Source of the DNA: Planctomyces sp. SH-PL62
GTDB taxonomy: Bacteria > Planctomycetota > Planctomycetia > Planctomycetales > Planctomycetaceae
Assembly (NCBI GenBank): GCA_945905295.1
Contig: CAMDPX010000044.1
Coordinates: forward strand, 1 to 40,405
DNA length: 40,405 nt
Direction of reading: 5' to 3'
The notes beneath the pieces are model-generated. The model was not told where the DNA came from. It searched no databases and worked only from the letters and a program-made list of their open reading frames with translations. The position numbers and the translations under genes are program-made. Below are positions 3,301-21,724 of the stretch, in pieces (the first letter of the stretch is position 1; the number at the start of each line of letters is the position of its first letter).

Positions 3301-5917
3301 TGTCGATCTTGATGAGCCGGGGCGAGACGACGATTGCAATGCGGTCGTGCTTCTTCGTCTTGAGCATCCACGGGTCGTGCTCGTGAAAGAGCTCGCCCGC
3401 GGCCCGCATGATCGACGGCAACCCGTGATAGCCGGAGCGGCTGTCGTACGGCTGCGGTCCCCAGTTGGGAACCCAGCCCGATGAGCCCACACCGTCGCCG
3501 CCGCGCATCGCAATCTGAAACAGCACGGGCAGGATTTGCTCGCCGGTCCCTTGGTCGTTCCAGATCTCCGGATGAAACCACGCCGGTTTGCCCGGCCGTT
3601 TCTCGAAGTCGACCGCGTGCATGTGCCAGTTCGGGACCGTGATCTGTTCGGCTTGGAATTGCACATCGACCTCGTCCACGTCGCGGTACGTCACCGGCGG
3701 ATAAACCTGGACGTTGCGGTATGGCCCGCTGTCCGCCTGCTTGAGTTGCGGTGCGACCTCGTCCATCGCCGACTCGAAGACCTTGCGCGAGTCCACCGGC
3801 AGGTTCCAGCGCGCCTCGCCGACTTCGTCCAGGATCGGATCCCACTTGCCGGACTCCTTCGCGACCTTGAGCGCCGCCTCGTAAGCCTTCCACTTGGCTT
3901 CGGCGACGATCTTGGTTGGTTCGTAGATCCACCAGTTACTCGTCCAGCTCCAGCCGCGGAAACTTGGAAACGGTTTGAGCAGCGACGTGATCGACTTCAC
4001 GTCAGCCTGATACTGCGCGGGCGAACGACGGTCGTGGCCGCTACCCAGTGGCAGGCCGGCGTCCATGTACGTGAGGATCGACCACTGCCGCACGCCCCCC
4101 GCGCCGTACGCGGCCAGCGTTTCCAGACCCGGCGGAAGAATGCGAGCCTTCTCCGGATCGACGCCGATGGGGTCGGCTGCCAACCGCTTCATCAGATCAG
4201 GAAGTTCCGGCGCGTTGTGATGCGACCACTCGAATTGCCCACGGAAGTGAGCGATGCCGAATCGGTCCACGAACTGGTTGACGCGCCGCTTGTCGATGCG
4301 AGCCATGTGCGTGGCCAGCACATCGCGGCTGTCCCAAAGATTGCCGTAGTTGGCGGTCAGTCCGTAATCACCGTGAACGGTCATGCGAAAATCGGATGCC
4401 GCATCGAGACCGGTCCCAATGACCAACGGCTGCGCCGCGACGGTGAAACCAGCAACTTGCGCGGTGAGTCGATATCGTCCGGGCTTGAGTGCGGCAATCG
4501 AATCGGCAGCGAACGTCACGTCGCCTCGTCCCTCGGCGTTGATCGCGGCGTCCTGCTTGGCAAGCGTGAGTTTCCCGTCGGTCAACGACACGGTTACGGT
4601 TGCCGGTCGCCGATCAGCCGGGGCGCGCACTACGACTGCTGCCGTGACCTTCTCACCCTTCGCGAAATGAGTTCGGTTGCCCGGCGTCAGAATGCTGATG
4701 GTCCCCACGCTGTCGAGGACGCGGACTTCGATCATGTCGCGGACAAGGAATTCCGCAGTCGAGCCCGATTGGGCTCCGCGCAGCTCGGGGCTGACCTTGA
4801 GTTGGTACAGCCCAGCCATGTCCGCAGGCACGACGATCCGGCCGTCTCTCGACGGCAATTCACGCCAATCGACATCGCCCCACGTCGCGGCCCAAACTCG
4901 CCAGCGCGGCGCGATCGGTCTCCCGCCGGCGTTGAACTCAATCGTGAATGGTGTCGCCTCGCCCGCCTTCCAAAGAGGCGTCGGATAACGCACGGTCAGT
5001 TGCTCGTGGTCGAGCGACACGACCGCCTTCCGCTGGCCCGTTGCGCGATCAAACGATTGAAACAACTCTGTCGGATGAGACCGTTTGATGAGCAACTCGC
5101 CGCCGAAGACCCGCAGCGACGAGAGGTGCATCCCGGAAGCAGGTTTCTGATCGCCGAACTGGAGTGTGAAGTTGCCGTCTGGCTGACCGGCGGAATTGAG
5201 CCAGACTCCCTTGTCGTGAACGGGCCCGATGACACAGACCTTGCCATCGGAGTCCACGTCAAACGAACCGAGGCCATCGGGATGCCGGTAGCTCCAGCGC
5301 GTCTTTCCGGTCAGGTCCGAGCAACGAACCGTGTGATTCTCAACGTGCCAGTAAAACGATTGTGTCTTCTCGCAGACTCGGAAGCCCGCGAATCTCTTCG
5401 TCTCCTTCTCATCGGCGAAAATCGGATACGTCGTGACGGTCCGCCCCTGCGCGTCGATGCGCACGACGCGATTGCGGTGGTGATCGATGCCGTAGAAGTC
5501 TCCAGACGTCTCGCCCGCCTCGACACCGAGCGGGGCGTCCCAGCCAACGGCGTCGCTGACGAGAAACTCGGCGTTGGCCGCCAGAGCTTTGAAGTTCGCG
5601 TCGTACAGATTCACCGCATGAGCGAAGTGAGCATTGGCCGTCGCGATGACTCCGGCGGCGTTGGCCGTGGCATTGCCCATCGCATACACGACCGTCCCGC
5701 CAACCTTGTCCGATCCGTCTCGTCCAAAACGAAGCACGAACCCTGGCGACTGCTGGTTACTGAGATACACCCGCCCGTCTCGGCCGACTGTCATCACCGC
5801 ACTGCGACTGTCGAACGCAGCGTTCTCGCGAGAAACGATCTGCGTGAGCTGCACCTGAGCGAACGCAGAGGAAGTCAGGATCAAAGCGACGAACGTGACG
5901 AGCCAAGTCTTAAACAT
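368..5917 (-). CDS. Giant secreted multidomain protein: beta-propeller, glycosidase-like and discoidin-like
   Basis: This is an 1849-aa exported protein. The start chosen is the ATG at 5917, because it is followed directly by a clear signal peptide (MFKTWLVTFVALILTSSAFA). The frame stays open further upstream but would overlap the sulfatase gene. Residues about 20-320 look like an NHL/propeller repeat region. Residues about 505-1110 resemble a TIM-barrel glycoside hydrolase followed by a GATase-like flavodoxin fold, as in GH42-type enzymes. Residues about 1130-1500 are PQQ/WD-like propeller repeats (LYGLDINNGQIKW, TAKWRLNL). Residues about 1530-1660 look like a discoidin-type ligand-binding sandwich, and the last 180 residues form another beta-sandwich. 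It follows the sulfatase by 79 bp on the same strand, so a joint role in attacking or sensing a sulfated glycan is inferred. Catalytic residues were not identified. Confidence 0.75.
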   Translation of the reverse strand: MFKTWLVTFVALILTSSAFAQVQLTQIVSRENAAFDSRSAVMTVGRDGRVYLSNQQSPGFVLRFGRDGSDKVGGTVVYAMGNATANAAGVIATANAHFAHAVNLYDANFKALAANAEFLVSDAVGWDAPLGVEAGETSGDFYGIDHHRNRVVRIDAQGRTVTTYPIFADEKETKRFAGFRVCEKTQSFYWHVENHTVRCSDLTGKTRWSYRHPDGLGSFDVDSDGKVCVIGPVHDKGVWLNSAGQPDGNFTLQFGDQKPASGMHLSSLRVFGGELLIKRSHPTELFQSFDRATGQRKAVVSLDHEQLTVRYPTPLWKAGEATPFTIEFNAGGRPIAPRWRVWAATWGDVDWRELPSRDGRIVVPADMAGLYQLKVSPELRGAQSGSTAEFLVRDMIEVRVLDSVGTISILTPGNRTHFAKGEKVTAAVVVRAPADRRPATVTVSLTDGKLTLAKQDAAINAEGRGDVTFAADSIAALKPGRYRLTAQVAGFTVAAQPLVIGTGLDAASDFRMTVHGDYGLTANYGNLWDSRDVLATHMARIDKRRVNQFVDRFGIAHFRGQFEWSHHNAPELPDLMKRLAADPIGVDPEKARILPPGLETLAAYGAGGVRQWSILTYMDAGLPLGSGHDRRSPAQYQADVKSITSLLKPFPSFRGWSWTSNWWIYEPTKIVAEAKWKAYEAALKVAKESGKWDPILDEVGEARWNLPVDSRKVFESAMDEVAPQLKQADSGPYRNVQVYPPVTYRDVDEVDVQFQAEQITVPNWHMHAVDFEKRPGKPAWFHPEIWNDQGTGEQILPVLFQIAMRGGDGVGSSGWVPNWGPQPYDSRSGYHGLPSIMRAAGELFHEHDPWMLKTKKHDRIAIVVSPRLIKIDNWQDFSGLYFSRLFEAYQLCLYAHRPASIVFLDDIDANGLKKYQAVLVVGQTVEMEPKLAEALRVAKDAGVAVFADGSCRAELVADFQPLGVSFNQFEKLHSINNDFAYWEHPRLLKEHSTVLREKLGPIVPPVAECDNSEVTLTERLSTSHDGVRYVFAVNNTTTPVEPGSLWRMTLGIATRLPVKTTLGLRDIAGCSVYDLFDGRQVQPDTAGRMECDLRTLPMRVYAIVPSQAKPAVDAMVSARPSLKVAPHFGPHLKDIAIAGDVAVLNAFNWDNNLYGLDINNGQIKWRDRVGHYFAFAPQSTGNGFAVQGYDFTSAQGYHLHLLNKEGKPSRRFVLPGLPQRLPHEFISGALLLDRTNQFAVSSNADWIAAAGSLGMAAWDREGRQLWAEDWSRSSAPTGVLLTTLNDETLTSTRGMTVLAHDPRTGTAKWRLNLASSGEITRVVASADGNTLVALTTTESGRLFVIRNGRVINTIPASGDELSVSPDGSHLALTDVEKLKLYDSAGGLIWQFNGDDRVHHPRFAPDGKRIAFSSELGTASVLSLDGDVLLERDMRALTVPAWLPQGDLLLATWMGTVVRLDERYMEKWRTLLSPDPAIHDIRPIALQADPTPTSRYELWTNAQPSEQVAPTNLLTPGKTVVLLRRSNDQQVEFTDQPGKLFDGDRTAPAKPWINWRDVYPVGSGGTNFTLIIDRFNTNLRVNAVTIVEDPAHPESWLRDVLFESWNPRQETWEPAGRLLSDQATHTHILPKPVEAARFRLSLPRGFVGNLRLSEIMLHGEELGPSHPDAVANKPMAVLFDENESDLTSLKYPNNGFSFRYEDPFSGGKCLAMESDKTANAYYRPPFGHLIPNWAFRIVEQPTKPGEYRWLSFAWKGSEGSRGMTLRVGEHHAGGVALHAGEATKFEPVLATHQVATTPPKEWTIVTIDLWKLAGREMTIGSMSLSTVGGAATFDRILLGRTEADVARKKD

Positions 5918-5996
5918 AGGGGTTGGTCGCTCTGTTGTTGATCGGGGCTGAGGTATTCGTAGCGTGATTGGCGTTGTCGGCGCGATGTGATGCCAC

Positions 5997-7925
5997 TCAC
6001 TCGCCCAGGATGCCGAGTTCCGCGACGGTTGCGAACGACTGCTCGCTATGTGCTGAGTGGGCTCGCAACAGAATGTAGCGACCTTTGGTGGCGGGGCATT
6101 CGATGGTTTGCGGTTCCTTCTTCTTGGCGAGTTTTGTTTTGATCGCCGGTTCGCCGAACTTTTCCGGGGACTGACTGATGCAGAACTCCATGTCCTTGAT
6201 CGCACCGTTCCAGCCGGTGTCTTGGCGGCCCAGATAGACGAAGCCGCGAATGGTGCGTTCGGCTCCGAGGTCGATTACCAGTTCGTGTGGCGGTGGTGCG
6301 ACGGTGCCGGAGAACTTGGTATGCCAGAGCGTCGTCGGATCGCCGTCGATGGCGTTGCGAGCGAACTTTTTGTTGTCGGTGTTCTCGCTGCTGACGCGGA
6401 CGATCTTCCAGTCCTTGTTGGAGAGCATCCCTTTGGTCGGCATCACGGCGGCTTTGGTGTTCGGCTTTGCTCCGGTCAGCGGGTCGGGGGCGTTGGGATT
6501 GTCCTGTTGGCCGGTCTTCGCGCGGCGGTCACGCTCATGACGGTCGGTGCGAGCGAATGTGCCTTCAACGGCTGGGGTGTGAGCTTTCGTCGCGAGAGCA
6601 TCGAGCTTGGCGACGATGTCCGGCTTCGCAGCGGCGAGGTCTTGCGATTCGCTCGGATCGGCGGTGAGATCGTACAGCTCCCACTTCGCGTTTTGCTTCG
6701 GTCGCACCGCTCGCCACGTTCGCTGACGAATGGCGGTTGCTCCGCCGATCTCCCAGTAGAGAAAGTCGTGTTGCTGCTGAGCGTGGCCGGCGGCCTTCTC
6801 GCCAATCAACGTGGACAGAATCGAGAGGCCATCGACATCGGCGGGAGCTTTGGCTCCGGCCACTTCGGCGATCGTCGGCAGCACGTCGGGGAAGTACGCG
6901 AGATGTTCGGTCACTCCGCCCGGTGCGATCTTGCCCGGCCAACGTGCGAGGAACGGGACTCGCAGCCCGCCTTCGTAGAGCTGACCTTTGTGGCCACGAT
7001 ATTCAACGCCAGTCTGAGGATGCTTGTTCGCGGAATGCACGCCGCGCGGATGCTCGGCGGAAGAAAAATAGTCGGCCCCGCCATTGTCGCCGCTGAATAG
7101 GACGAGCGTGTTCTGCTCGATGCCCAGTTCCTTCAGCGAGGCGAGCACGTCGCCGACTTGCCGATCGACCATGCTGACCATCGCGGCGTACCGGCGAGCG
7201 TTCTCGGGCCACGGCTTGTCTTTGTAGATCGCCCACGCCGAGTCCGAATCAGGAATGTCGAAGTTACCGTGCGGCGGCGTGTAAGGCAGATATGCAAAGA
7301 ACGGTTTGTCCGTTTTGCCGTGCTCGCGGATGAACTTCATCGCCGCGTCGTGAATGAGATAATGCGAGTACGTCTGCCCCTTCGATCCGCCGTTGTTGCC
7401 AGCGAGCGTGACTTCCTCGCTGTTGCGGATCAGGTACGGCGGGTAATAGGTGTGAGCATGGACTTGGTCGTAATAGCCGAAGAAGAGATCGAAGCCATGC
7501 TTCTCTGGCACGCCGGTGGAATCGCGTCCGCCGCAGCCCCACTTGCCGAATCCGCCCGTCGCGTAGCCGAGCGGCTTGAGCATCGACGCGATCGCCGTCT
7601 CGTCGGCACGCAGCGGAGTGCCACCGCCGTTGACTCGCACGGAGCTATGCCCGCTGTGCTTGCCGGTCATCAAACAGCACCGAGTCGGAGCACACACCGA
7701 CGACCCGGCAAAGAGGTTCTTGAACCGCATCCCCTCCGCCGCCATGCGATCGAGATTCGGCGTCTTGATGTTCATCCCGCCATTGAAGCCCGGTTCGTAG
7801 TACCCAAGCTCGTCGGCCATGATATAGACGACATTCGGCCTGGATGACGAAGGAGCGGCAACGGCATCAAGCTCGAACGATGACGCGAGCAACAGGGCAA
7901 TGAGGAGAGCGTGGGTGTGCTTCAT
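5997..7925 (-). CDS. Secreted type I sulfatase with C-terminal discoidin-like domain
   Basis: This 642-aa protein has a signal peptide (residues 1-24, cleavage near AVAA). The N-terminal 460 residues are an alkaline-phosphatase-fold sulfatase. The formylglycine motif is CAPTR at Cys78, and metal-binding NVVYIMADELGYYEPG lies near residue 31; a Glu sits where many sulfatases have the second Asp, as in a common planctomycete subgroup. FSGDNGG and GHKGQLYEGGLRVP motifs are present. Residues about 500-642 form an F5/8-type (discoidin) sandwich (NAIDGDPTTLWHT, HELVIDLGAERTIRGFVYLGR), probably tethering the enzyme to glycan. It would hydrolyse sulfate esters after maturation of the Cys by a formylglycine-generating enzyme, which is not in this window. 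It sits 98 bp behind the 617-aa protein and 79 bp ahead of the giant protein. Confidence 0.93.
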   Translation of the reverse strand: MKHTHALLIALLLASSFELDAVAAPSSSRPNVVYIMADELGYYEPGFNGGMNIKTPNLDRMAAEGMRFKNLFAGSSVCAPTRCCLMTGKHSGHSSVRVNGGGTPLRADETAIASMLKPLGYATGGFGKWGCGGRDSTGVPEKHGFDLFFGYYDQVHAHTYYPPYLIRNSEEVTLAGNNGGSKGQTYSHYLIHDAAMKFIREHGKTDKPFFAYLPYTPPHGNFDIPDSDSAWAIYKDKPWPENARRYAAMVSMVDRQVGDVLASLKELGIEQNTLVLFSGDNGGADYFSSAEHPRGVHSANKHPQTGVEYRGHKGQLYEGGLRVPFLARWPGKIAPGGVTEHLAYFPDVLPTIAEVAGAKAPADVDGLSILSTLIGEKAAGHAQQQHDFLYWEIGGATAIRQRTWRAVRPKQNAKWELYDLTADPSESQDLAAAKPDIVAKLDALATKAHTPAVEGTFARTDRHERDRRAKTGQQDNPNAPDPLTGAKPNTKAAVMPTKGMLSNKDWKIVRVSSENTDNKKFARNAIDGDPTTLWHTKFSGTVAPPPHELVIDLGAERTIRGFVYLGRQDTGWNGAIKDMEFCISQSPEKFGEPAIKTKLAKKKEPQTIECPATKGRYILLRAHSAHSEQSFATVAELGILGE

Positions 7926-8002
7926 GGCTGATTACTCCGGTCGTCCGTTGTCCGAGGGTTTCTTGCCATCGATGATCGCCTTGGCTTGGCGAACGTACGG
8001 AA

Positions 8003-8020
8003 GCAGGCGGTGCCACCTGC
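8003..8020. repeat. Single short palindrome between two minus-strand genes
   Basis: GCAGGCGGTGCCACCTGC folds as a stem of five pairs, one mismatch and two further pairs around a two-base loop. It lies in the 98-bp gap between the 617-aa gene and the sulfatase gene. It resembles one unit of the double-hairpin elements found elsewhere in the window, but no partner copy is present. Confidence 0.4.
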
Positions 8021-8023
8021 GGG

Positions 8024-9877
8024 CTATTTGTTCTTGCGCCAGGTCCAGAACGAGTAATACTTGCCCTTCTTGTCGTGAGCGGCAGCGATCATCGCAGGGC
8101 GGAAGCCATCGGCGGCCAGCTTCTTCCATTCGGCGAGAGTCTCTTCATGCGTCTTGTTGGCCCCCGCGACCTCCGTCACACCTTCGAGAATCTCGGTCCA
8201 AGTAATGAAGTGGGGCGAGTTGTCGCCGGCACTCACACCGACGTCTCCGACCAGTCCCTTACCGCTGGAATGTTCGGCGATGTTCTTGATGTTCCATTCG
8301 ACGGTGCCGCCTCCTTGCATGCCTCCGGCACTGATCGGCTTTTTGAGAATCATGTCGGAAAAACGTTTGCCATCGGCGTGCATCCAAGTATGGATCGTCG
8401 ACATCCACATTCCCCTTTCGTTGGCCGGCTTGCCTTGAGTCCCATCAAGCCAGCCAACTTGAACCACTAACTCTTCCTTCTCCTTGAGTGGCCGACGCAC
8501 TGAGGTCAGCACATAGCGAGCGACTCCGTCCTGGTCGGGATAGCCGGCGATGTCGCAGGGAATCCAGCCTTCGGCGCGCATGGCTTTGTCATGTTCGGAC
8601 ACCTCGTATTCCTTGCCGTCGAAGAGTTCGCCGGGGAATTCGTCGCGGTGCCAGATCGCGGCGACGAGCGGACCATCAGCGGTCCAATACGGGCGGAACC
8701 GAATCGGCCGTAGCTTTCTCAAGGCCAGTGACTTCGACATTGCGATCGCATCGTCGAGCTTCGCCGCCTGACAAATCGCGAAGTCCTTCGTGAGCAGTCC
8801 ATGAAAGCTCGCAAAGCGAACTTCCAGATCGGCCTCCATGCGATTGAGCAACATCAGTTTGTTCGCACTTCCGTTCGTTGCTGCCCACTCGCTCTCGCTG
8901 ATTCGTTGCTCGGCCTTCGTCTTGCTGAAGCCTTTGAGGTCGGGCGCGGCATATTCAGCCCATTGACCAGCTCGCAGTTTGAACTGCTGCTTGAGTCGCG
9001 GCAGGGATTGCTTCTGCCCCAATTCCCACCATCGCTGCGAGATCGCTTCCGCCTCTTCGGGAGATGCCAGAGCTTGAGCTGCGACCAACTTGAGGTCTTG
9101 CTCGGCGGCTTGCTTGATCGCTGCGTCCGATGACTTCGCCAGCAGTGGCAGGCCGGCATTCCAGTCGTTCTTCACCATGATCTCGAACCGCCCAACGGTG
9201 TCGTTCGCGGCGGGATCGTCTGTCTTGTTTTTGAGAGTCTGACGCGCGGTCGGCAGCTTGTCGGCGAGCTTCTTCAGTTCGGTCAAATCCGTGCGACCTG
9301 CGCTCGCCTTCTTGCCGAGGTCCGCAGACTTCAGCTTGAGAGCAATCGAGCTCACAACGTCATAGCAGTCCTTCGCCACGTCGAAGCGTTCGGCCGCAAT
9401 CTGCTCGGACGCGACCGACAACAGTTTCTCCGCGAGCGCTGAATGGTACTCCTTGTCGGTCGGCCCGACGGCGAGATCCTTCAGCGTCTGCACGATCAAC
9501 GTTGTCTCGTCGACATCGAATCGTTGTCCAATGATCCGTGCGACCTTCAGAGACAATTCGGTGTTGTTGGCCTTCACGGCGATTGCATGCGCCTGGGTCA
9601 GCAGCGCGTAGTCGCTGCCTGCTGAGGCCGCGTCGTTCTGCACGTTCTCGATCATGCGTTCGGCCAGCGAGCTCTGCTGGGCTTTCGATTTCGCCGCCGC
9701 GATGTCGGCTTTGAAAACGTCTTTGACGCTCGCTTGAAGCTGCTTGAGCTCCGCAGCAGGCGGCACGGGACTGCGGTCAGCACTCAAGCACAGACCACTG
9801 GATAAGATGAAAACCAAGAGCACGCCCAGAAGGCGAGCAAGCTTGATCCAACGAATCGTCCTCTGAGAAACCAGCAT
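8024..9877 (-). CDS. Exported protein of unknown function with two C-terminal A-x-G-[FW]-x-P-x-x-IA repeats
   Basis: This is a 617-aa protein. The ATG at 9877 is chosen because it precedes a signal sequence (MLVSQRTIRWIKLARLLGVL, then LVFILSSGLCLSA); the frame continues 20 codons upstream into the divergent promoter region. Residues about 30-300 are Lys/Ala/Glu-rich and predicted helical, possibly TPR-like. The C-terminal 250 residues are globular. A motif of about 30 residues occurs twice, at residues 433-463 (MRAEGWIPCDIAG) and 587-617 (LAADGFRPAMIAA). Each is followed by an aromatic strand. I recall similar units in other planctomycete secreted or kinase-linked proteins, but their function is unknown to me. 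Position ahead of the sulfatase suggests an operon. Confidence 0.7.
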   Translation of the reverse strand: MLVSQRTIRWIKLARLLGVLLVFILSSGLCLSADRSPVPPAAELKQLQASVKDVFKADIAAAKSKAQQSSLAERMIENVQNDAASAGSDYALLTQAHAIAVKANNTELSLKVARIIGQRFDVDETTLIVQTLKDLAVGPTDKEYHSALAEKLLSVASEQIAAERFDVAKDCYDVVSSIALKLKSADLGKKASAGRTDLTELKKLADKLPTARQTLKNKTDDPAANDTVGRFEIMVKNDWNAGLPLLAKSSDAAIKQAAEQDLKLVAAQALASPEEAEAISQRWWELGQKQSLPRLKQQFKLRAGQWAEYAAPDLKGFSKTKAEQRISESEWAATNGSANKLMLLNRMEADLEVRFASFHGLLTKDFAICQAAKLDDAIAMSKSLALRKLRPIRFRPYWTADGPLVAAIWHRDEFPGELFDGKEYEVSEHDKAMRAEGWIPCDIAGYPDQDGVARYVLTSVRRPLKEKEELVVQVGWLDGTQGKPANERGMWMSTIHTWMHADGKRFSDMILKKPISAGGMQGGGTVEWNIKNIAEHSSGKGLVGDVGVSAGDNSPHFITWTEILEGVTEVAGANKTHEETLAEWKKLAADGFRPAMIAAAHDKKGKYYSFWTWRKNK

Positions 9878-11484: not shown

Positions 11485-14400
11485 CTACCGCCGGACGGTG
11501 GCGGGTGTCTTTAGCTCGCGGCTGGCTGAGCGGAACAGGAACGATGGGTCTTTCGGGTCGTTGGTGACTTTCCAGACTTGGCCGTTGTGCATGTAGACGC
11601 GGCGTTGCTCTTCGAGGTTGAATGGTCGCGCTCCGATGCGGCCGAAGACGCTGAGTTGGTTGCCGGCTTCATCGACGGCTCGGTCGCGGTCCACGCCTTC
11701 GGAGATGCAGACGGCGTGGCCGTCTTTGGGAAGTTTCCTGGTGGCGATGAGCTGCGGAGTGGGACGTGTCGCAAAGCCTCCCGTGCCGGGTGTGTCGGCG
11801 TTGGTGAGCTGTACGACGTGCATGCCGTTGTGGCCGTCGGCGAGGTAAGCGAATTCGCTGTTGCAGGTGATGCCCAGCTTCACATCGTTCAGGTCGCCGA
11901 TGCAGCCGTTGGCGGTGTAGATCTGATCGACTTTCGGTTCGAGCGGATTCTTGACGTCTACAATAATCAGTCCTTCGTGTCCGCCGGAGACGTAGGCGTA
12001 GGTGCGGGCGACGTAGACGTTGCGAGCCTCGTGGAGATGCAGGCTGGCCTTCGGTTCGGGGGACGCGAGGTTGGTCACGTCCAATACCTTGAGTCCGTCG
12101 TTGTCGGCGACGAAGGCGTAGCGGAATTGAACTTGGACGGCTTTCGGGTTGTTCAAGAACGGTGCGCCGATGACGGTCTCGATGCGTGGGGTCGTCGGCG
12201 TGCTGAGATCGACGACGACTAGGCCGACGTCGGCACAGATGTAGGCGTAGGTGCCGACGATCGTGATGGCTCGTGCTCCGCAGAGGATGCCGTTGGGATT
12301 GAAGGTGACCGCACGCTCCAGGAAGTTGTTGGTCGGATCGCCGTCGAGCAACGTGCCGGCTCCGACGAGGATCAGCCCCTCTTGGCGATCGGCGACGTAG
12401 ATGTAGGCGTAGAGCATGTGAACTTTCTGCTCTTCATTTTCCGGATGCTGCTTGCGTGTCGGGTCCGGAGCCGTCGTGGACGGCGCGGCCACGGCGGCGG
12501 CGTCTTTGGTGGGGACGTAGAGTCGCTGACCGAACGGTGACACGGGGGCGGTGGTGATTCGCTCCGCAAAGCCTTTGTGGTCGATGAAGGCGGCGTCGAA
12601 GACACGGAAGCCGGCCTCACCGCAGGCGGCGTACACATACTCGCCGCGTAACTGAAGACTCTGGATGTTCGCCTTGCGGCGCGGATGTCGGATGCGGTCG
12701 GCGACGTCGTGGCCGGGGTGCTCGTGGGCGTGTTCGATTTCGCCCCCCTTCTCGCAGTGCTCGTGGAATTGTTCCGGGAACGCGAGCTTGTGCAGCGTGC
12801 TGCCGATGACCGCTTGCGGCTCGTCACGTTCGGTGACGACGACCGCTTCCATTCCGTGCTCGCCGGCTCCGACCCAGCAGTATTCTCCGATCCAGTTCGT
12901 GTAGTTGGTGCCGTGCATCAACAACTGAGCCATGATGGCGTTGTTGTCTTCCGCTTTGCTGAGATGGCAATCGGAGCATTGTTTGGTGCCGTCTTTGCCG
13001 CGGACGGTGTGTGGCACGTTCGTGGAGAACGCGATGCCGCTCAGGCCGTCGGAGGAAATCGTCTGCTGCTGCACGTAGATCGACTCGCGGTTGTTGTTGT
13101 AGCTGCTGACATGCACCGCGCACGCCGAACGGACTGGGTTCGTGCGGTTGCCGGTGACGGTACTGTCCTTGCCCAGCATGTAGACGTCGTCTCGCAAGGT
13201 TTGGAAGTTGTACGACGTGTAGTTCCGGCTGACGTCTCCGTCGTTGTGCAGTCCGGGCATTTTCATGTTGGCTCGCTGCTTGAGGTGGCAGCCGTAGCAA
13301 CTGGGGTTCCAGGACGAGTGGCAGCTCGCACAGGACATCTTCTTGTTGTCGTGAGCACAGTTCGCGGAATCCTTGGGCTTCGCTCCCCAAGTGATCTGAT
13401 CTCCCTCGAAGCGGACGGTCTTGGCGAGATGCGACTTCTCGTTGTATCTGGGATGGCCTGGCGTGATCGTGTCGATGACCTGCGGAACTTCCCACTGACG
13501 AGGTTGGTCTCCGTTCTTCTCCACCATTGCCGTTTGGATGATCTTTCCGTTGGGGCCGCCGACGCGGCGGAAGCGCGGCTTGCCTGACGGAGTGGACAGC
13601 AACTCGAGGTTCGTGCCCCCGTCCGGAGCGGCTGGACCGCTGGTGCGGAGCGACGCACGCTGATATGCGGTGCCGTGGCAGTCTTCGCAGGAGATCTCGA
13701 TGGCGGCGCGCACTTCTCCGTAGAGCTTCGTGTTGCCGTGATTGTCTTGCTTGAAGTGACAGTCGATGCAGTGCATCCCTTTTTCCAAGTGGATGTCCAT
13801 GAAATGCACCGGCATGCCGTCCTTCTCCGTCCGGCAGTCGGGATGCAACATCGCGTAGTTCAGCTTCGCTGTTGTTTCATCCTCGATGATCGTCCCCTTG
13901 TGGTCGAGCAAATGGCCTTCGCGATCCTTCTTGAAGACGGCTCGGAAGACCCAGCCGTGGCCGTGGAAGTCGGCGAACTGCATGTGCTTCAGTTGCGGAT
14001 TCAGATCGGCCGTGTTGGCGAGGAACTCAGGATCTGACCATTTGCCGCGCAAGGAACCCTCTTCTGGATTGTTCATGGCCGCGCGGACAAATTCCTCGGC
14101 CGTCGGTTTCTTTTGATGCTCCGGGTACATCAACTCTCCGTCGGTTTCATTGTCCCACCACTGCATACCCAGGTAACTCTGCAAGACGGTCGTACCGGGG
14201 TGCATGTGACAGACGACGCATTGACTGGTTGGAATCGCGGTGGTGAATTCGTGGCGGATGGGGTGACCGGGTTCATCCTTGGGGATCGTCGGATCGGGGT
14301 TCTGTGTCAGGCTGCGATTACCGGCGCTGGCATACGGGCCAGAATGCACCGGCGAACGATCGTTGGCGTAGATCACATGACACGCCGTGCAACCGCTGGA

Positions 14401-15519
14401 GCGGTAGTCGCCGGGATGATCGTTGGTGCCGAGGAAATTCAAGGTCGGGTCGAGCAATCGCGTCTTCGCCAATCCGACGAAGACTGGGTCGGTGCGGTTC
14501 TCAGTGCCGAGGCCACGATTACTGAGTCGCGTTCGCGGACGCCCTGGCTCTTCATCGCGAGTCGGGACGCCGACATCGGTGCGGAATCGACCGCCGCGCT
14601 CGAAGATACGGAGCACGTTGCCGGGGTGAGAGATCTCAAACCGCGGCAGAGGATCCAGGAACGGGACGACCCCTTTGTGCTTCATCTCCCACTCCGTCGG
14701 AGCCGGCACCGTTTGCAAGCGTTGCGGAACGCCGTTCATCGAGTAGCTCTCGCCATAGCTCGAACGTTTATTCGGAACCGCACCGTTGTTGTAGAGGGCC
14801 GCGCCCCACAACATGCAGCCGTGAGTCATCATGCTCTTTTTGACTTCCAGCGTTTCGCGCGGATGGCAGCCGGCCGTCCCGCAACTGAGATGCGCGATGC
14901 GCAAGTCGCCGGGATTCACGAACCGGACGAACTCGGGGCACTCGTGGTTCAGCACGGTGTAGGATCGGACCGGATTGCCCGATGAGCCCCAGACCTCCGG
15001 GAAACGCGGCTGGACGTGAGAGTACCACTTGTTCGTGGTGGAGGCGTCGCCGCCGTGGCAATCGACACAGCCCAAGTTCAACGTGTTGGGCTTGTGCATG
15101 TCGCCGCAGTTCTTGTGGCACTCCACGCAGCTCCAACTCTTGGCGTGCGCTTCATCAGCCGTCTGCCGCATCAAGCTGAATTGGTCCAATCGGGCCAAGT
15201 CCGCCGCGCGGTCGGCCTTCGAGCCATGCGGCGAACGCACCGGCTGCGGCGGATCCTCTGGCGACGGAGGGAGGTCGATCAACTCTTTGAAGCTGACCGG
15301 AGACACATCCGTTGTGCGATCGGCCGTCGCGGCGGGCGATGACCGCGCCGCCTTCGGCGAATCATCCTGTGCGACAGCCACGTCGATCAGCTCTTTGAAG
15401 CTGCTGGGACGTGCGGCGCGTGCCGGCTTCGGCTCGGCAGCACTCGCCGTTGCGGTGAGGCCCGCACAAAGAATGGTCAAGCAGAAGATTGGCGTTCGGA
15501 GCGGCATGATCTCGTCCAT
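11485..15519 (-). CDS. Secreted multiheme c-type cytochrome fused to LVIVD beta-propeller
   Basis: This is a 1344-aa protein with a signal peptide near the N-terminus; ATG at 15507 is an alternative start giving a more typical signal sequence. A 36-residue unit beginning FKELID occurs twice in tandem (residues 41-76 and 77-112). The next 800 residues hold nine CXXCH heme-attachment sites (CVECH, CVDCH, CTACH, CVVCH, CIDCH, CEDCH, CASCH, CYGCH, CSDCH) and one CX4CH site (CGTAGCH), so nine or ten covalent hemes are expected. The C-terminal third has five or six LVIVD-type repeats (TYAYVSGGHEGLIIVDVKNP), a propeller usually found on surface proteins. It lies 124 bp behind the outer-membrane barrel gene. 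Electron transfer at or across the outer membrane is inferred; the redox partner is unknown. Confidence 0.88.
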   Translation of the reverse strand: MDEIMPLRTPIFCLTILCAGLTATASAAEPKPARAARPSSFKELIDVAVAQDDSPKAARSSPAATADRTTDVSPVSFKELIDLPPSPEDPPQPVRSPHGSKADRAADLARLDQFSLMRQTADEAHAKSWSCVECHKNCGDMHKPNTLNLGCVDCHGGDASTTNKWYSHVQPRFPEVWGSSGNPVRSYTVLNHECPEFVRFVNPGDLRIAHLSCGTAGCHPRETLEVKKSMMTHGCMLWGAALYNNGAVPNKRSSYGESYSMNGVPQRLQTVPAPTEWEMKHKGVVPFLDPLPRFEISHPGNVLRIFERGGRFRTDVGVPTRDEEPGRPRTRLSNRGLGTENRTDPVFVGLAKTRLLDPTLNFLGTNDHPGDYRSSGCTACHVIYANDRSPVHSGPYASAGNRSLTQNPDPTIPKDEPGHPIRHEFTTAIPTSQCVVCHMHPGTTVLQSYLGMQWWDNETDGELMYPEHQKKPTAEEFVRAAMNNPEEGSLRGKWSDPEFLANTADLNPQLKHMQFADFHGHGWVFRAVFKKDREGHLLDHKGTIIEDETTAKLNYAMLHPDCRTEKDGMPVHFMDIHLEKGMHCIDCHFKQDNHGNTKLYGEVRAAIEISCEDCHGTAYQRASLRTSGPAAPDGGTNLELLSTPSGKPRFRRVGGPNGKIIQTAMVEKNGDQPRQWEVPQVIDTITPGHPRYNEKSHLAKTVRFEGDQITWGAKPKDSANCAHDNKKMSCASCHSSWNPSCYGCHLKQRANMKMPGLHNDGDVSRNYTSYNFQTLRDDVYMLGKDSTVTGNRTNPVRSACAVHVSSYNNNRESIYVQQQTISSDGLSGIAFSTNVPHTVRGKDGTKQCSDCHLSKAEDNNAIMAQLLMHGTNYTNWIGEYCWVGAGEHGMEAVVVTERDEPQAVIGSTLHKLAFPEQFHEHCEKGGEIEHAHEHPGHDVADRIRHPRRKANIQSLQLRGEYVYAACGEAGFRVFDAAFIDHKGFAERITTAPVSPFGQRLYVPTKDAAAVAAPSTTAPDPTRKQHPENEEQKVHMLYAYIYVADRQEGLILVGAGTLLDGDPTNNFLERAVTFNPNGILCGARAITIVGTYAYICADVGLVVVDLSTPTTPRIETVIGAPFLNNPKAVQVQFRYAFVADNDGLKVLDVTNLASPEPKASLHLHEARNVYVARTYAYVSGGHEGLIIVDVKNPLEPKVDQIYTANGCIGDLNDVKLGITCNSEFAYLADGHNGMHVVQLTNADTPGTGGFATRPTPQLIATRKLPKDGHAVCISEGVDRDRAVDEAGNQLSVFGRIGARPFNLEEQRRVYMHNGQVWKVTNDPKDPSFLFRSASRELKTPATVRR

Positions 15520-15550
15520 GAAATCTCGTGCGTTCGGAATGTGTATAGGA

Positions 15551-15629
15551 CTCAGAGACTATCTGAGACGCCCGTTGCCTGACTCTCTGAGTCGGGGCTT
15601 TCGCGAGAAAACACCCGACTCGGAGAGTC
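15551..15629. repeat. Two hairpins in the barrel-cytochrome intergenic gap
   Basis: CTCAGA and TCTGAG (15551-15567) form a small hairpin. GACTCTCTGAGTCGGG (15581-15596) pairs with CCCGACTCGGAGAGTC (15614-15629) with one G-T wobble across a 17-nt loop. Each arm is also itself a palindrome (GACTC, three bases, GAGTC), the double-hairpin architecture seen elsewhere in the window. Located between two co-oriented genes, it could attenuate or process their shared transcript. Confidence 0.6.
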
Positions 15630-15643
15630 CGGCTACGGTGACA

Positions 15644-17710
15644 TCAGAAGGTGAAGTCAATTTCCATGAAGCTGGCGAAGAAACCACTCGGACTATCGTT
15701 GGTGCGATGGTACAAGTCCTTAAAGCCGGCACCGGGAATCAAGCCTGAAACACCGCCGACGATGATGACGTTGTTGTTCAGGAATGGCCGGTACTCAAAG
15801 CCGGTGCTCAAGTCCGTTCCGATGCTGTGCCCGACGTGTTCTTGAAAAATGAACGTCTCCAGAACGCCGGTCTTGTCAAACCACAGGAAGTTGCAGTTGT
15901 TGATAAACCGCAGCTTGGGAGTGATGTCGTAGTCCACACCCAGATTGAACAGGAACAGGCCCGGATTGACGAAGTTCGATTGGCCTTGGAATTTGCTGGA
16001 GCGCAGATCCGGGACGAGGCTCTGGCGGTTGACAAGGTTCACTCCGAAGAGGCCGATGGTCTGACGTTGCCAATAGCTGAAACCGCCGCCGCCAAAGTTC
16101 GGGTTGTCGAAGATGGTGTCGAAACCTCTGGCCTTTCCGTCATTGATGTTGTTGTCGCCGCTGGACCAGAAGAACGACGTGCGGAAGCGCGCCCAGTCTC
16201 GATCGTAAGACAACTCGATGGCGGCCATCTGCGCGTTGATGTCCTGCGCTTTGCCGGCTAACGGGTTTTGCGTGTCGCGCCCCAACGCCCAATAGAACGC
16301 ATGGCTGATGTTGAAGCGGTTGATGTGCCCGTCGCCGGCAAAGCCCAGGTAGTACGACTCGACCCTGTGCTGCTGGAACGTACCGACTCCGTCAGGACGG
16401 GCCAGGTTATCGTTTTTATCCAACTCGAAACTGGGTCCGTCGTTGTTGTAGTGAAAGCTGGCTTCCGCCGTGTAACCGGGCCAGATGAAGTCCTGGCGGT
16501 AGTAGTTGGCGATGATCGTGTTCTGGTGCCGGTCATCAAACGTATTGAGCAAGCTGTTGGACTGCTTCTCGGTTTGATCGAAGAAGACGAGGTTGAACTG
16601 GTCACGATTGGCGTTGTTGGTGCCGAACAGCCGGACGCCGCGGTTGGTGTCACTGAAGATGAATCCGCGGAAGTCGCTGAGAAAGAACTGCGAGCCGGCG
16701 CGGACCGAGACGAAGTCGTAATACGGACTGGTGTCGGCGAGCTTGGTCTCGACGAACCATTCCTCCAAGGCACCATCGCCACGTGACCGAGTCGAGCCTT
16801 CATTAACGTTCGGGTTGACGATGGCCAGCTCGTTGACGTCGAGGTAGTTAAAGTTGAGGATCGGAGTCAGTTTGACGCGCCAGTCGGCTGGCTTAAATGC
16901 TCCGTCGCCATGAACCAGGTCGAACGACATTATAAAGTTTTGCACATAGAGAAACTGATTCGGGTCGCCAAAGAACTCGTTCTGGTCGGGACTGCCGGTG
17001 CTTTCGAAGGGAGTGGTCGGCGTCGGAACCTGACGCGCTTCCAAAATCGAAAGAGCGGTTCCCGTGAAGGTCAAGAACGTGTGCTGACCAATAATGGGAT
17101 AGTCCCCCTTGAGCACGTTCTGGTTGTACGGGTCGAGCATACTGCCTTGCACATACGGGTAATCGTCCACCCAGGGATGGCCTTTGCCGTAGCGGTCCCA
17201 AGCGGGAAATCCGGATCGCCAGCGATCCTCCATCGGGACGAAGTGGCTGCTCTCCTGACCTTCGCTGGGAACCACACTGCTCTGCCCGCTGAAGCCGAGC
17301 GGTGCTTCCACGGGGTAGGCGAACAAGACGCCTGGCTCCAACGGCATTTCGGGAAGCAGCAGCGGATCTGTCTCTGAGAAGCTCGGCGACAACGGTCGGC
17401 GCAGGACCGGCGGCTGAATGTTTTCTGTGTCGGGCGGTGGCGGCACCGAGTCGTCTGCGTCCGTCGCTCCCGTCATTTCGATACCGGGATCGGACTCGGT
17501 CTCTCCGTCTTCATAGAGAGCCGGCAAGATCTCTTCCGAGTCGAGAAGCGGCGGCGCGGCGAACGAACTTCGCCATGCGACGAGGGACAACAGGCTCAGC
17601 GTAATACACACACCACTGACACGCCGAACGCCAGAGTTGCGCAGTCCTCTGCCAATCCAACATGCGAGCGATTCGGGGTTCTCTGTTTGATGCGACACGT
17701 CTCGCCTCAT
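15644..17710 (-). CDS. Outer-membrane beta-barrel (porin-like) protein
   Basis: This is a 688-aa protein. The ATG at 17710 is preferred over a GTG at 17818. A long, basic N-region is followed by a hydrophobic signal segment (VSGVCITLSLLSLVAWRSSFA). An acidic/proline-rich linker (about residues 55-140) precedes about 500 residues of alternating aromatic beta strands with Asn/Asp-rich turns (FNYLDVNELAIVNPN, YDFVSVRAGSQFFLSDF). The chain ends in ...FMEIDFTF, the terminal Phe signature of outer-membrane barrels recognised by the BAM machinery. It is the first gene of a likely two-gene operon with the multiheme cytochrome. A porin that sheaths or anchors the cytochrome is inferred; no similarity to a specific porin family was recognised. 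Confidence 0.8.
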   Translation of the reverse strand: MRRDVSHQTENPESLACWIGRGLRNSGVRRVSGVCITLSLLSLVAWRSSFAAPPLLDSEEILPALYEDGETESDPGIEMTGATDADDSVPPPPDTENIQPPVLRRPLSPSFSETDPLLLPEMPLEPGVLFAYPVEAPLGFSGQSSVVPSEGQESSHFVPMEDRWRSGFPAWDRYGKGHPWVDDYPYVQGSMLDPYNQNVLKGDYPIIGQHTFLTFTGTALSILEARQVPTPTTPFESTGSPDQNEFFGDPNQFLYVQNFIMSFDLVHGDGAFKPADWRVKLTPILNFNYLDVNELAIVNPNVNEGSTRSRGDGALEEWFVETKLADTSPYYDFVSVRAGSQFFLSDFRGFIFSDTNRGVRLFGTNNANRDQFNLVFFDQTEKQSNSLLNTFDDRHQNTIIANYYRQDFIWPGYTAEASFHYNNDGPSFELDKNDNLARPDGVGTFQQHRVESYYLGFAGDGHINRFNISHAFYWALGRDTQNPLAGKAQDINAQMAAIELSYDRDWARFRTSFFWSSGDNNINDGKARGFDTIFDNPNFGGGGFSYWQRQTIGLFGVNLVNRQSLVPDLRSSKFQGQSNFVNPGLFLFNLGVDYDITPKLRFINNCNFLWFDKTGVLETFIFQEHVGHSIGTDLSTGFEYRPFLNNNVIIVGGVSGLIPGAGFKDLYHRTNDSPSGFFASFMEIDFTF

Positions 17711-18003
17711 TCCCTGAGAACGCGGCCTGTTCCTCCGATGAGGAAACAATCGGCGTCCCTGCCACAAATACGAAAGTCTTCCCGCAGTCGCCCGAATGAC
17801 TACGGCTTTTCCTTTCACATCGGTTCTTCCGGTGAAAACAAATCAATCTGTTCTCAACGGTTCTAACATCCGATGAAGGAAATCAGTCCGACGCGCTGAT
17901 CCGAGAAAACACAAAAGTCAGGTAGCTTTGGGTATCCCGGCTGAATAGTTTGTGCGAGTCCTCGCAATTTTATGGAATCTTCGGGCCAAGGAGAGTTTCG
18001 CTC
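17711..18003. promoter_or_regulatory. Divergent promoter region between barrel and GlcG/HbpS-like gene
   Basis: This gap of 293 bp lies between divergent genes and should hold promoters for both the barrel-cytochrome unit and the surface-protein gene. It is more AT-rich than its surroundings. AGGAGAG lies eight bases before the ATG at 18004. I could not define -35/-10 boxes or an operator with confidence. Confidence 0.4.
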
Positions 18004-21000
18004 ATGTTCTTCCCATCCTTCCGCCGGCTGGCACGCCGCAGGCACCGATCCGCGAATCAAATCGAACAATTGGAGTCGCGTGAATTGCTGGTCGCGCAAT
18101 TGACGACTGCCGAAGTGACCAAGCTGCTGGATCGCGCCTCAATGGCGACCTCCACCGACGACGCCATCATCGCCGTTGTGGATCGCGGTGGGCACATCCT
18201 GGGAGTTCGCACGGAACAGGGAGTGCTCGACGGGATTGATGCCGACACCCTCAATGGCGGCAACGCGAACGACCTGATCGATACCGCTGCGGAAATCAAT
18301 ACGCTGGTCTACGCGATCGACGGCGCAGTGGCCAAAGCTCGGACAGCCGCCTTTTTTGCCAACGGGACTGCGGACACCCGAATTGTTCCTGACGAAGACG
18401 GTCCGATACCCGGAACCATCACACCCTCGGTGGGCCCCTTGACGTCACGCACCATTCGCAACATCAGCCAGTCCACGATCACACAACGCGAAGTGCAATC
18501 GAATCCCAGCATCAGCGATCCCAACTCCACGCTCCGTGGTCCGGGATTCGTCGCACCGATTGGTGTGGGGCAACATTTCCCGCCAGGAGTTCCACACACG
18601 CCGCAGGTGGACTTGTTCGCGATCGAACACACGAACCGCGACAGCATCGTGCATCCCGGCTTGGATAGCATCAAAGGGACCGCCGACGACATCGCGCTCC
18701 AGCAACGATTCAACATCGATCCCGCATTCGTGCCCGATGGAAAAACCATCGATGCCCCGGAAAGTTATGGCTTCACATCAGGACTGGCCCCCAACGCTCA
18801 AGCCCGCGGCATCGCGACCCTACCGGGAGGATTGCCGCTCTATCGCATCTTCGATCAAGACCCGAACAGCCCCACTTTCCAGCAGCTCGTGGGACTCGAT
18901 GTCGTGGGTGGCATCGGAGTGTTCTTCCCCGGCACGGTTGATCCCGATGGTCCCGGCGGACCAGGTCGCATTGGCGACGCCACTTTTGAGCAAGACTATC
19001 CGAACGCCCAAACCGAATTAGCGCGGACAAATGCTCCCAAAGTCTTGGAGTCCGAATACGCGGCGCTGTTTGCCATCGGCGGCGGAATGTTTGGCGGACT
19101 CAACTTGGCGACGGACCGCTTCTTCGGAGGCGACTTCCCAATTCCGTTTGGACGAATCGACCTGGTCGGGATCACGCTCCAGATCATCGGGCCCACTCCT
19201 GGTGTCTCGGGCGTGCGCACGATCGAGGCCATTGGCAACACGATTCCGAAGGGGGATGTGAAACTCGGCGCGCGAATCAGCCAGACGGCCACCACGCTGA
19301 CCGTCAACAACGCTTCGTTACTCCCCGCAGTCGACGGAAACTCGGCGTCGGTCGATTTCCGAGTGCTCATTGATAATGAGATTCTGGCGGTCACCAACGT
19401 CGTGGGAAACACGCTGACCGTCGTACGCGGTCAGAACGGCACTGCTCCCGCAGCACACTTGGCCGGAAAAGCAGTCATCCAGGGCACCGTCCAACTTTCG
19501 GCCGCCGTCAATATCTCGGCGACCACGATCACGGTCACCGACTCCACGGTTCTGCCAGCCTTTGATGCGGATCCGGCAAGCGTGGACTTCTTCGTCCGCA
19601 TCGAAAACGAAATCGTCGCCGTCAAGAATGCCGTGCAGAATCCCAACGGAACGGCGACCCTGTCGATCGACCGCGCGCAGAATGGAAGTCTGGCCAAGGC
19701 TCACGCGAAGGGGAAAGAACTCGTTGCTGGCAGCGGTGCCAACCAGTCGGTCAAGATCACCTCCAGTGTTGCGGCCACCTTAAGTGACTCGGCAACAAGC
19801 CTCGAAGTCCCCGACGCTTCAGTGTTCACGCAGGCGACGCTCCCCTTCTCGATCACCATTGATACCGAAGTGATCTCGGTCACCGGCGTCGATACCGTCA
19901 CGAATACGTTGGCCATTACTCGTGCGCCGGGGGCTGTGGCTCATGCCATCGGAGCCACGATCCGAACCGTGACGAACTTCACCGCCGTGAACGGGAGAGA
20001 GATCGGGGAAGGCTTTTTGGTCACTCCACATGACTCGCCGTTATTGACGACGGCGACCTCCAGCGTGTCCGTCGCTTTGGACGCGGTGGCCACGACACTG
20101 ACGGTGCCCAATGCCTCCGTGTTTCCGGCCGTAGACGGAAATACTGCCTCGATCGACTTCTTTATTCGCATTGAGAACGAAGTCATCGCGGTCACCCATA
20201 TCTCTGGAAACACTTTGACGATCGTCCGTGCGCAACGTGGCACCACGGCCGCGTCTCATGCGATCGGGACAACGATCTTTACGACGGAGCTCACTGGGGC
20301 GCAGGTTTTGCAAATCATCCAGCAAGGCATCGTTGTAGCCGCCGATACCGAAACACGGTTGGACCTGGACAATAACGGCCAGCCGGACCTCACCAGCGAC
20401 GGACGTCGGGTGCGAGCCGCCATTCGGTTGGAAGTCTCAGGGGTCAACCCCGCGACAATCAGAGGCAATGATCAGCGGCAACTGAATCGAGTGGGGACGA
20501 ATCCCGGTGCCTCCGCGATCATGGTTCTGGCCGTCGCGGATGCCGATGGCAACGTCTTGGGTCTGTACCGCATGCACGACTCGACGATCTTCTCGATCGA
20601 TGTGGCCGTGGCCAAAGCACGCAACACGGTGTACTACGCCGGCCCGACCCTTCAAGACGTCGACCGAGTCGATGACAACCGCGACGGCATCCCTGATCCC
20701 AACGTCCCGCTGGGGACCGCGTTCACGAATCGCACGTTCCGCTTCTTGGCCGAGCCGCGCTTCCCACAAGGGGTCGATGGCAGCCGGCCCGGTGCTTTCT
20801 CGATCCTCAATGAAACGGTCGGGGGAGTGCCAGTGACTCAAACACAGTTTCTCGCATCGAGAAGTCCGCAGACCGCAGTGCGTGCGGCCGACAATAACGG
20901 CGGTCCGGTCGCCGCATCCGCCTTCCAGACGGTGCTCGGCTTTGATGCCTTCAATCCCGGTCGAAACTTCCGCGATCCGAACAACATTGCCAATCAAAAC

Positions 21001-21237
21001 GGCATCGTTTTCTTCCCCGGCAGCACTCCGATCTATGCCGGTGTCGGTTCTCTCAACGCTGGCGCGCTGAATGGAGGCTTCGGGATCAGCGGTGACGGCG
21101 TCGATCAAGACGACGTCGTCACCTTCTTCGGCGCACGACAATTCTTGCCACCCGATGCGAACGTGATCGCCGATGAAGTCCGAGTCCGCAACACTCGACT
21201 GCCTTACCAGAAGTTTAACCGCAATCCGTTCGGGTAA
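18004..21237 (+). CDS. Large surface protein with two GlcG/HbpS-like modules flanking four beta repeats
   Basis: This is a 1077-aa protein. The ATG at 18004 has AGGAGAG upstream. The N-terminus is Arg-rich and carries IEQLESRELLVA, a variant of the planctomycete LEPR-XLL export motif. A GlcG/HbpS-type segment follows (LTTAEVTKLLDRA, AIIAVVDRGGHILGV, YAIDGAVAKARTAAFF). A second one lies near the C-terminus (AIMVLAVADADGNVLGLYR, FSIDVAVAKARNTVYY, then GGFGISGDGVDQDD). This family includes heme-binding HbpS. Between them are four related repeats of about 75 residues encoded at about 19267-20280 (pattern TLTV.NAS..PA.D...ASVDF.I.I.NEI.AVT....NTLT..R...GT..A.H..G). It is divergent from the cytochrome operon. 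Heme or redox-cofactor binding at the cell surface is inferred. Confidence 0.78.
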   Translation: MFFPSFRRLARRRHRSANQIEQLESRELLVAQLTTAEVTKLLDRASMATSTDDAIIAVVDRGGHILGVRTEQGVLDGIDADTLNGGNANDLIDTAAEINTLVYAIDGAVAKARTAAFFANGTADTRIVPDEDGPIPGTITPSVGPLTSRTIRNISQSTITQREVQSNPSISDPNSTLRGPGFVAPIGVGQHFPPGVPHTPQVDLFAIEHTNRDSIVHPGLDSIKGTADDIALQQRFNIDPAFVPDGKTIDAPESYGFTSGLAPNAQARGIATLPGGLPLYRIFDQDPNSPTFQQLVGLDVVGGIGVFFPGTVDPDGPGGPGRIGDATFEQDYPNAQTELARTNAPKVLESEYAALFAIGGGMFGGLNLATDRFFGGDFPIPFGRIDLVGITLQIIGPTPGVSGVRTIEAIGNTIPKGDVKLGARISQTATTLTVNNASLLPAVDGNSASVDFRVLIDNEILAVTNVVGNTLTVVRGQNGTAPAAHLAGKAVIQGTVQLSAAVNISATTITVTDSTVLPAFDADPASVDFFVRIENEIVAVKNAVQNPNGTATLSIDRAQNGSLAKAHAKGKELVAGSGANQSVKITSSVAATLSDSATSLEVPDASVFTQATLPFSITIDTEVISVTGVDTVTNTLAITRAPGAVAHAIGATIRTVTNFTAVNGREIGEGFLVTPHDSPLLTTATSSVSVALDAVATTLTVPNASVFPAVDGNTASIDFFIRIENEVIAVTHISGNTLTIVRAQRGTTAASHAIGTTIFTTELTGAQVLQIIQQGIVVAADTETRLDLDNNGQPDLTSDGRRVRAAIRLEVSGVNPATIRGNDQRQLNRVGTNPGASAIMVLAVADADGNVLGLYRMHDSTIFSIDVAVAKARNTVYYAGPTLQDVDRVDDNRDGIPDPNVPLGTAFTNRTFRFLAEPRFPQGVDGSRPGAFSILNETVGGVPVTQTQFLASRSPQTAVRAADNNGGPVAASAFQTVLGFDAFNPGRNFRDPNNIANQNGIVFFPGSTPIYAGVGSLNAGALNGGFGISGDGVDQDDVVTFFGARQFLPPDANVIADEVRVRNTRLPYQKFNRNPFG

Positions 21238-21325
21238 CCGACGGAGCCGCCCGATCGGGTGGAATGCTCAACCTCGTTTGCAACACTCGTGTCGCCGTTC
21301 ATCGGCGATCGAATCAGGAGACGCC

Positions 21326-21724
21326 ATGATGGCCACACCTCACCGAGACGGATTCCGAATCGGCCGACATCTCGCCACCGTTGTTTTGACAGCGATCATC
21401 GCATCATTTGTCACACCACTCAGCGCGAGCGATGAGCAATGCCCAAGCTGCGAATCCCACGACCGTCACGCTTGCGCGGGCTGGCCGCAGTGTATTTCTC
21501 CCTGGGCTCGCCCTTCGTATGGCTGCCATGAATGGGGCGGCTACGTCGGCGGTGGTGCTCCCCATCACGGCGATTCTCGTTGCGCCCACGAAGGGACTTG
21601 GGGCTGGGACTATCACGGCCGCCTCTTCACCAAACGAGTCTGGCTCGGCTGGCACCACGGCCGCCGCGAACAAGGGGGCTACGGAGCCTACAAGTCAGAC
21701 GGGCCGCGCATTCTGCCGGAATAG
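21326..21724 (+). CDS. Small exported Cys/His/Trp-rich protein
   Basis: This is a 132-aa protein. The start is set by CAGGAG five bases before ATGATG at 21326. Residues 1-34 form a signal peptide (HLATVVLTAIIASFVTPLSA). The mature part contains six Cys, including CPSC and CAGWPQC, many His, and Gly-Trp/Gly-Tyr runs (WGWDYHGRLF, WLGWHHGRREQGGYG). No family was recognised. It is 88 bp behind the GlcG/HbpS-like gene on the same strand and may be part of the same surface module. Cys and His density suggests metal or heme contact or disulfide cross-linking, but this is only inference. Confidence 0.65.
   Translation: MMATPHRDGFRIGRHLATVVLTAIIASFVTPLSASDEQCPSCESHDRHACAGWPQCISPWARPSYGCHEWGGYVGGGAPHHGDSRCAHEGTWGWDYHGRLFTKRVWLGWHHGRREQGGYGAYKSDGPRILPE

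Follow-up and report, generated by a model that had tools for sequence, protein, structure and literature searches.

A candidate outer-membrane half of an electron relay outside the Mtr/Pio family in Planctomycetota

Several bacterial systems join an outer-membrane barrel to multiheme cytochromes. The MtrCAB and PioAB systems of Shewanella and Rhodopseudomonas pair the barrel with a decaheme cytochrome, and the Pcc (OmbB-OmaB-OmcB) and Ext clusters of Geobacter likewise combine a barrel with multiheme cytochromes. Verrucomicrobia carry clusters in which a non-Mtr porin with at least 20 predicted segments lies beside an eight-heme periplasmic cytochrome, and these have been proposed to serve extracellular electron transfer (PMC5615132). 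Compared by their description in that paper, the Verrucomicrobia clusters are the nearest published parallel to the locus reported here, which likewise combines a non-Mtr porin with a multiheme cytochrome and comes from a PVC phylum. They differ in the eight hemes and periplasmic nature of the cytochrome, and the passages of PMC5615132 that describe them mention neither a propeller nor an HbpS partner. The open (non-subscription) literature yielded no prior description of an LVIVD propeller with multiheme cytochromes, of HbpS with multiheme cytochromes, or of Sphingobium with multiheme cytochromes.

The locus lies on contig CAMDPX010000044.1 of Planctomyces sp. SH-PL62 (GCA_945905295.1). The whole stretch of DNA analyzed, 40,405 nt of the forward strand, is called the window here. 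A cytochrome gene and, just upstream of it, a barrel gene share the reverse strand, and genes for an HbpS-like protein and a small exported protein diverge from them on the forward strand (Table 1). All four genes of the original prediction were confirmed in place when the sequence was re-read. We consider it fairly probable, on the strength of sequence comparison, that they form the outer-membrane and surface part of a relay that moves electrons across the envelope, with components unlike those of the textbook iron-breathing system.

Table 1. Positions of the module in the window and of related features in other sequences.
Feature	Sequence	Positions	Strand	Details
Decaheme c-type cytochrome with C-terminal LVIVD beta-propeller	Window	11485-15519	-	1344 aa; Sec-type signal peptide without lipobox
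LVIVD propeller region	Window	11545-12672	-	PF08309 repeats; limits approximate
Heme-binding part of cytochrome	Window	12964-15129	-	Nine CXXCH and one CX4CH; alignment of 27 homologues
Third heme site, CGTAGCH (CX4CH)	Window	14863-14883	-	Residue 213; CXXCH in most relatives
Intergenic hairpin, barrel/cytochrome	Window	15578-15632	-	Fold energy
Outer-membrane beta-barrel protein (predicted)	Window	15644-17818	-	Strand pattern, aromatic C-terminus, conserved N-terminal motif
Exported protein with two HbpS/GlcG-like (PF03928) modules	Window	18004-21237	+	1077 aa; LEPR-XLL-like N-terminus
Small exported protein, Gly/Trp/Tyr core	Window	21326-21724	+	Likely start ~21326; signal-peptide-like N-terminus
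Inner-membrane set L112	Contig C5	8539-16821		cNMP/4Fe-4S, b561-like, ten-heme and four-heme cytochromes; gene with NuoE and NuoF domains
Inner-membrane set L113	Contig C171	2250-11103		cNMP/4Fe-4S, b561-like, ten-heme and four-heme cytochromes
Cytochrome ORF beside barrel, L084	Genome G013	4946-6835		18 CXXCH
Cytochrome ORF beside barrel, L093	Genome G125	4860-8798		16 CXXCH

The stretch between the barrel and cytochrome genes folds into a very stable hairpin (-57.8 kcal/mol, z -6.1). The two closest relatives lack it, so that a role as a conserved regulator is unsupported. Elsewhere in the window, a very large protein similar to PQQ/WD40-like propellers (368-7925) adjoins a sulfatase with an F5/8 type C domain, and a Ser/Thr kinase domain is fused to a right-handed beta-helix (29624-32863). 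In some other genomes, kinase ORFs recur close to the module as well, which probably reflects how common kinases are.

That the four genes form a unit, as had been proposed, is borne out by their shared occurrence and adjacency. Among 294 genomes sampled from across Planctomycetota, the cytochrome, counted as present only where the match extends beyond single heme stretches, is found in 32, and the barrel in exactly the same 32. The probability of this overlap by chance is about 1e-43 if the genomes are taken as independent; because they are related, such p-values overstate independence. The pattern of co-occurrence is far beyond chance. Barrel and cytochrome are adjacent in nearly all 32 genomes, the exceptions being a contig end or a separation of a few kilobases, and the distance matrices of the two proteins are correlated (r = 0.85, 0/2000 permutations). 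In 21 of these 32 genomes, the examined flank of the pair includes the HbpS gene, divergent or in line, and further carriers have it farther along the same contig or on another contig; strong HbpS matches fall almost exclusively in genomes with the pair (23/24). The small protein is present in 18 of 40 relatives, every one of which also carries the cytochrome, and 19 relatives have neither; its gene is usually on the cytochrome's contig, 5 to 10 kb away. The co-occurrence across Planctomycetota on which the original prediction was staked is therefore seen for all four genes; for the small gene, this holds within the class only. The order cytochrome-barrel-HbpS-small protein also holds in a different genus and in a different family (L154, L155, and L156). 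The four genes occur together across one Planctomycetota class, and all but the small one are also found together elsewhere in the phylum and on large plasmids of some Sphingomonads. A contig search with one query sequence returned two close relatives only, and no relatives were found on viral contigs.

The assignment of the upstream gene as an outer-membrane barrel ending in Phe is supported by an alternating strand pattern and by a C-terminal residue that is aromatic (Tyr, Trp, or Phe) in 34 of 35 homologues and Phe in the window. The N-terminal part, ahead of the predicted strands, carries a conserved motif, DPYxQNVLKGDYPI. Neither Pfam nor NCBIfam has a family that the barrel matches above cut-off, and no PDB chain is homologous to it at E<=1. 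The original prediction that the module is not built from known Mtr parts holds for the barrel, for which neither Pfam nor hhalign gave an MtrB/PioB family match: PF11854, the model of that family, has no match in the window genome, and homology to MtrB was rejected given an hhalign probability of ~0.1% against six Planctomycetota MtrB proteins. From published structures, MtrB is expected to have 26 strands, and a simple strand count recovered 26 to 28 in MtrB controls at the same penalty. This crude count gives about 18 to 20 strands for the window barrel, starting near residue 246. Because the barrel is predicted to be narrower than MtrB, it may not enclose a cytochrome. An AlphaFold model of the barrel domain, built from three near-identical input sequences, had a mean pLDDT of 26 and was discarded.

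These properties bear on a special form of the relay, a strict MtrCAB-like conduit in which a cytochrome would occupy the barrel lumen and serve as a wire across the outer membrane. The gene pairing and the redox neighborhood argue for such a conduit, whereas a barrel that is non-homologous to MtrB/PioB and has fewer strands argues against it, and we regard it as doubtful. They also bear on the main rival, wherein the barrel is a substrate porin, an AlgE-like channel for solute import, accompanied by a redox enzyme. The decaheme-propeller protein would then be a periplasmic or outer-membrane-tethered oxidoreductase and the HbpS protein a binder or helper, with electrons kept inside the envelope. 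A barrel of 18 to 20 strands is consistent with such a porin, as is a weak Alginate_exp similarity in 5 of 32 barrel homologues (best E 2.7e-5; two listed singly below cut-off), but ordinary porins do not need a phylum-wide, one-to-one pairing with a decaheme protein.

The cytochrome had been described as carrying nine CXXCH sites and an LVIVD propeller. Both features stand, but the heme count was short, as a tenth site, CGTAGCH, had been missed. An alignment of 27 homologues reveals that all ten heme sites are invariant, the position of CGTAGCH being CXXCH in most homologues and CX4CH in some. At least ten further His residues are invariant in the same alignment, and more are nearly so. We infer that these would suffice to provide a second axial ligand for every heme, making all of them bis-His. 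The fact that ten extra His residues are invariant fits an electron-transfer (wiring) role better than that of an enzyme with an open heme, and leaves the porin-enzyme alternative with no obvious catalytic heme. The propeller is matched by PF08309 in three stretches (3.2e-22, 78 bits; gathering cut-off 20.2 bits), and LVIVD repeats are present in all 27 homologues scanned.

A strict lipobox follows the signal peptide in about 13 of 33 cytochrome homologues and a looser one in about 10 more (about 23 of 33 on the lenient count), and the family is likely anchored to the outer membrane. The lipobox is absent in the window cytochrome, its nearest relatives, and the Sphingomonad versions, so the lipobox evidence for surface anchoring does not extend to the window member. 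The ten hemes are spread over ~720 residues, so that heme density is low, and long stretches without heme sites are conserved. This anatomy is not MtrA-like and is closer to that of an MtrC/OmcB-type surface lipoprotein. The low density and the non-heme stretches could also point to an oxidoreductase served by a porin, as could the weak similarity of a short segment to a chain of an octaheme nitrite reductase. Given the invariant His residues and the lipoprotein character of most relatives, which count against it, we judge this rival explanation to be unlikely.

The window cytochrome matches no MtrA/DmsE- or OmcA/MtrC-type NCBIfam model at E<=1. The MtrC/MtrF domain model is matched weakly by 2 of 27 homologues (best E 8.5e-4), the window protein not among them. 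Its similarity to the ExtM model (NF040943) is weak, partial, and located around the heme stretches (72.9 bits versus a cut-off of 800). Because barrel and cytochrome both fail these family tests, the module is not an Mtr/Pio family member. It shares with MtrCAB/PioAB a barrel and decaheme cytochrome pair, lipoprotein signals in most cytochrome relatives, and, in many carriers, an inner-membrane electron source nearby; it differs in its non-homologous barrel with fewer strands, in the propeller on its cytochrome, in the lack of MtrA/MtrC NCBIfam matches, and in its HbpS partner. From the Geobacter Pcc and Ext clusters, it differs in a cytochrome far below the ExtM cut-off, a barrel without an NCBIfam match above cut-off, and recurrent neighbors among which no rhodanese or Rieske gene was seen. 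Barrel and multiheme cytochrome are strictly linked, occurring in one set of 32 genomes out of 294 and next to each other in nearly all of them, as in a porin-cytochrome system; the module would appear to work like one from outside the Mtr/Pio family.

The divergent gene encodes the 1077-aa LEPR-XLL-type protein that had been predicted to contain two HbpS/GlcG modules. PF03928 matches it in two stretches (3e-9, 37.4 bits; gathering cut-off 25), and the LEPR-XLL-like N-terminus was read from the sequence; the Sphingobium homologue scores 80.5 bits with the same model. The two modules have the HbpS/GlcG/EfgA fold, which here, unlike in its known representatives, is duplicated, exported, and fixed beside a barrel-decaheme pair, with a long insert splitting the window copy. 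By eye, four repeats of ~80 residues (pattern ...SVDFFIRIENEVIAV...) are evident within the gene at ~19270-20260; they sit between the two modules and are seemingly missing from shorter homologues. PF03928 is named for the heme-binding protein HbpS, which would be consistent with heme uptake or storage, wherein HbpS binds heme and the cytochrome acts as a reservoir. However, relatives of this fold with known structures include EfgA and NahX, the fold family includes proteins with other roles, such as EfgA, and none of the recurrent neighbors examined was recognized as a receptor, oxygenase, or transporter for heme. Since uptake genes were not found there, the heme-scavenging half of the original prediction was abandoned, and we consider heme uptake or storage highly improbable.

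The fourth gene likely starts at ~21326 rather than 21173. Its product had been called a small exported Cys/His-rich protein; a signal-peptide-like N-terminus is present, but Cys/His richness does not define the family, because these residues vary among homologues. Metal or heme binding through Cys/His was rejected for the same reason. The protein has a core of Gly, Trp, and Tyr residues (YVGGG, EGTWGWDY, and GWxHGR).

Neighbor clustering and family scans revealed that the cluster in several other carriers extends into an inner-membrane set. This set consists of a cNMP-binding/4Fe-4S protein, a b561-like membrane protein (weak similarity), a ten-heme c3-type cytochrome, which in Sphingobium and G149 also has an FHA domain, and a c554-like cytochrome. 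In G042, the first three lie within ~12.5 kb as a compact cluster, and the set is wholly or partly present in G063, G132, G003, G280, G178, G149, and Sphingobium; 17 of 19 strong b561-like matches are in genomes with the pair. The window genome has two inner sets, on contigs C5 and C171, which are away from the pair and show no linkage to it. In the C5 set, a NuoE-NuoF-like fusion gene lies between the other genes. A tetraheme c554-like protein, encoded at several loci, could fill the lumen of a strict conduit, although its gene is missing from many loci. Elsewhere in the window genome, at L068 (contig C94, 8209-12322), a second set of c554-like protein, barrel, and cytochrome is found, its cytochrome truncated by the contig end. 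The recurrent neighbors include no known acceptor or donor gene that marks the substrate.

Of the two functions originally proposed, electron transfer is strongly favored because of the ten conserved hemes with their extra invariant His residues, the lipoprotein signals, and the linkage to the inner-membrane set. In the relay that we favor, electrons would travel between the cytoplasmic cNMP-binding 4Fe-4S protein, at one locus near a NuoEF-like NADH-oxidizing protein, and the outer membrane by way of the b561-like inner-membrane protein, a periplasmic or membrane-anchored decaheme cytochrome, and the tetraheme c554-like cytochrome. The outer-membrane decaheme-propeller protein, presumably held at the barrel, would trade electrons with a surface partner, for which the HbpS protein or a substrate bound by it is a candidate, with the propeller as a putative docking platform. 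In the window genome, contigs C5 and C171 would supply the inner half. An outward direction, from NADH, is favored.

Plasmids in 12 Sphingobium records and in one from Sphingopyxis also carry the pair; there, the cytochrome has 41 to 46% identity over 90% of its length and the genes stand in a row of tetraheme c554-like gene, HbpS gene, barrel, and cytochrome. In a midpoint-rooted tree of the cytochrome, the Sphingomonads are nested in Planctomycetota, beside G158 and G058. A separate, well-supported group is formed by G061, G130, G013, and G125, which are without the HbpS gene. In G013 and G125, no HbpS gene is near the pair, and cytochromes with 16 to 18 hemes adjoin the barrel, so such cytochromes may take a place similar to that of HbpS. 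No such gene was seen in the stretch examined around the pair of G061 and G130.

More tentatively, the module may be a class of its own among trans-envelope electron conduits, one that is widespread among Planctomycetota and that Sphingomonad megaplasmids share through horizontal transfer. Its non-Mtr barrel would present the decaheme-propeller protein, and the double-HbpS protein would be a surface redox partner that 15- to 18-heme cytochromes replace in at least two HbpS-lacking genomes. If the relay is real, an electron route across the outer membrane that is as yet undescribed and escapes homology searches for Mtr/Pio parts is present in roughly a tenth of the Planctomycetota genomes sampled and in some Sphingomonads from soil, and exported HbpS-fold proteins gain a redox role. 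A laboratory test is realistic, because Sphingobium herbicidovorans MH is in culture and carries the module on a plasmid. On its plasmid pMSHV (L008, 458-8611), the region directly upstream of the module encodes a two-partner-secretion transporter along with a protein of 2092 aa for which there is no Pfam match.
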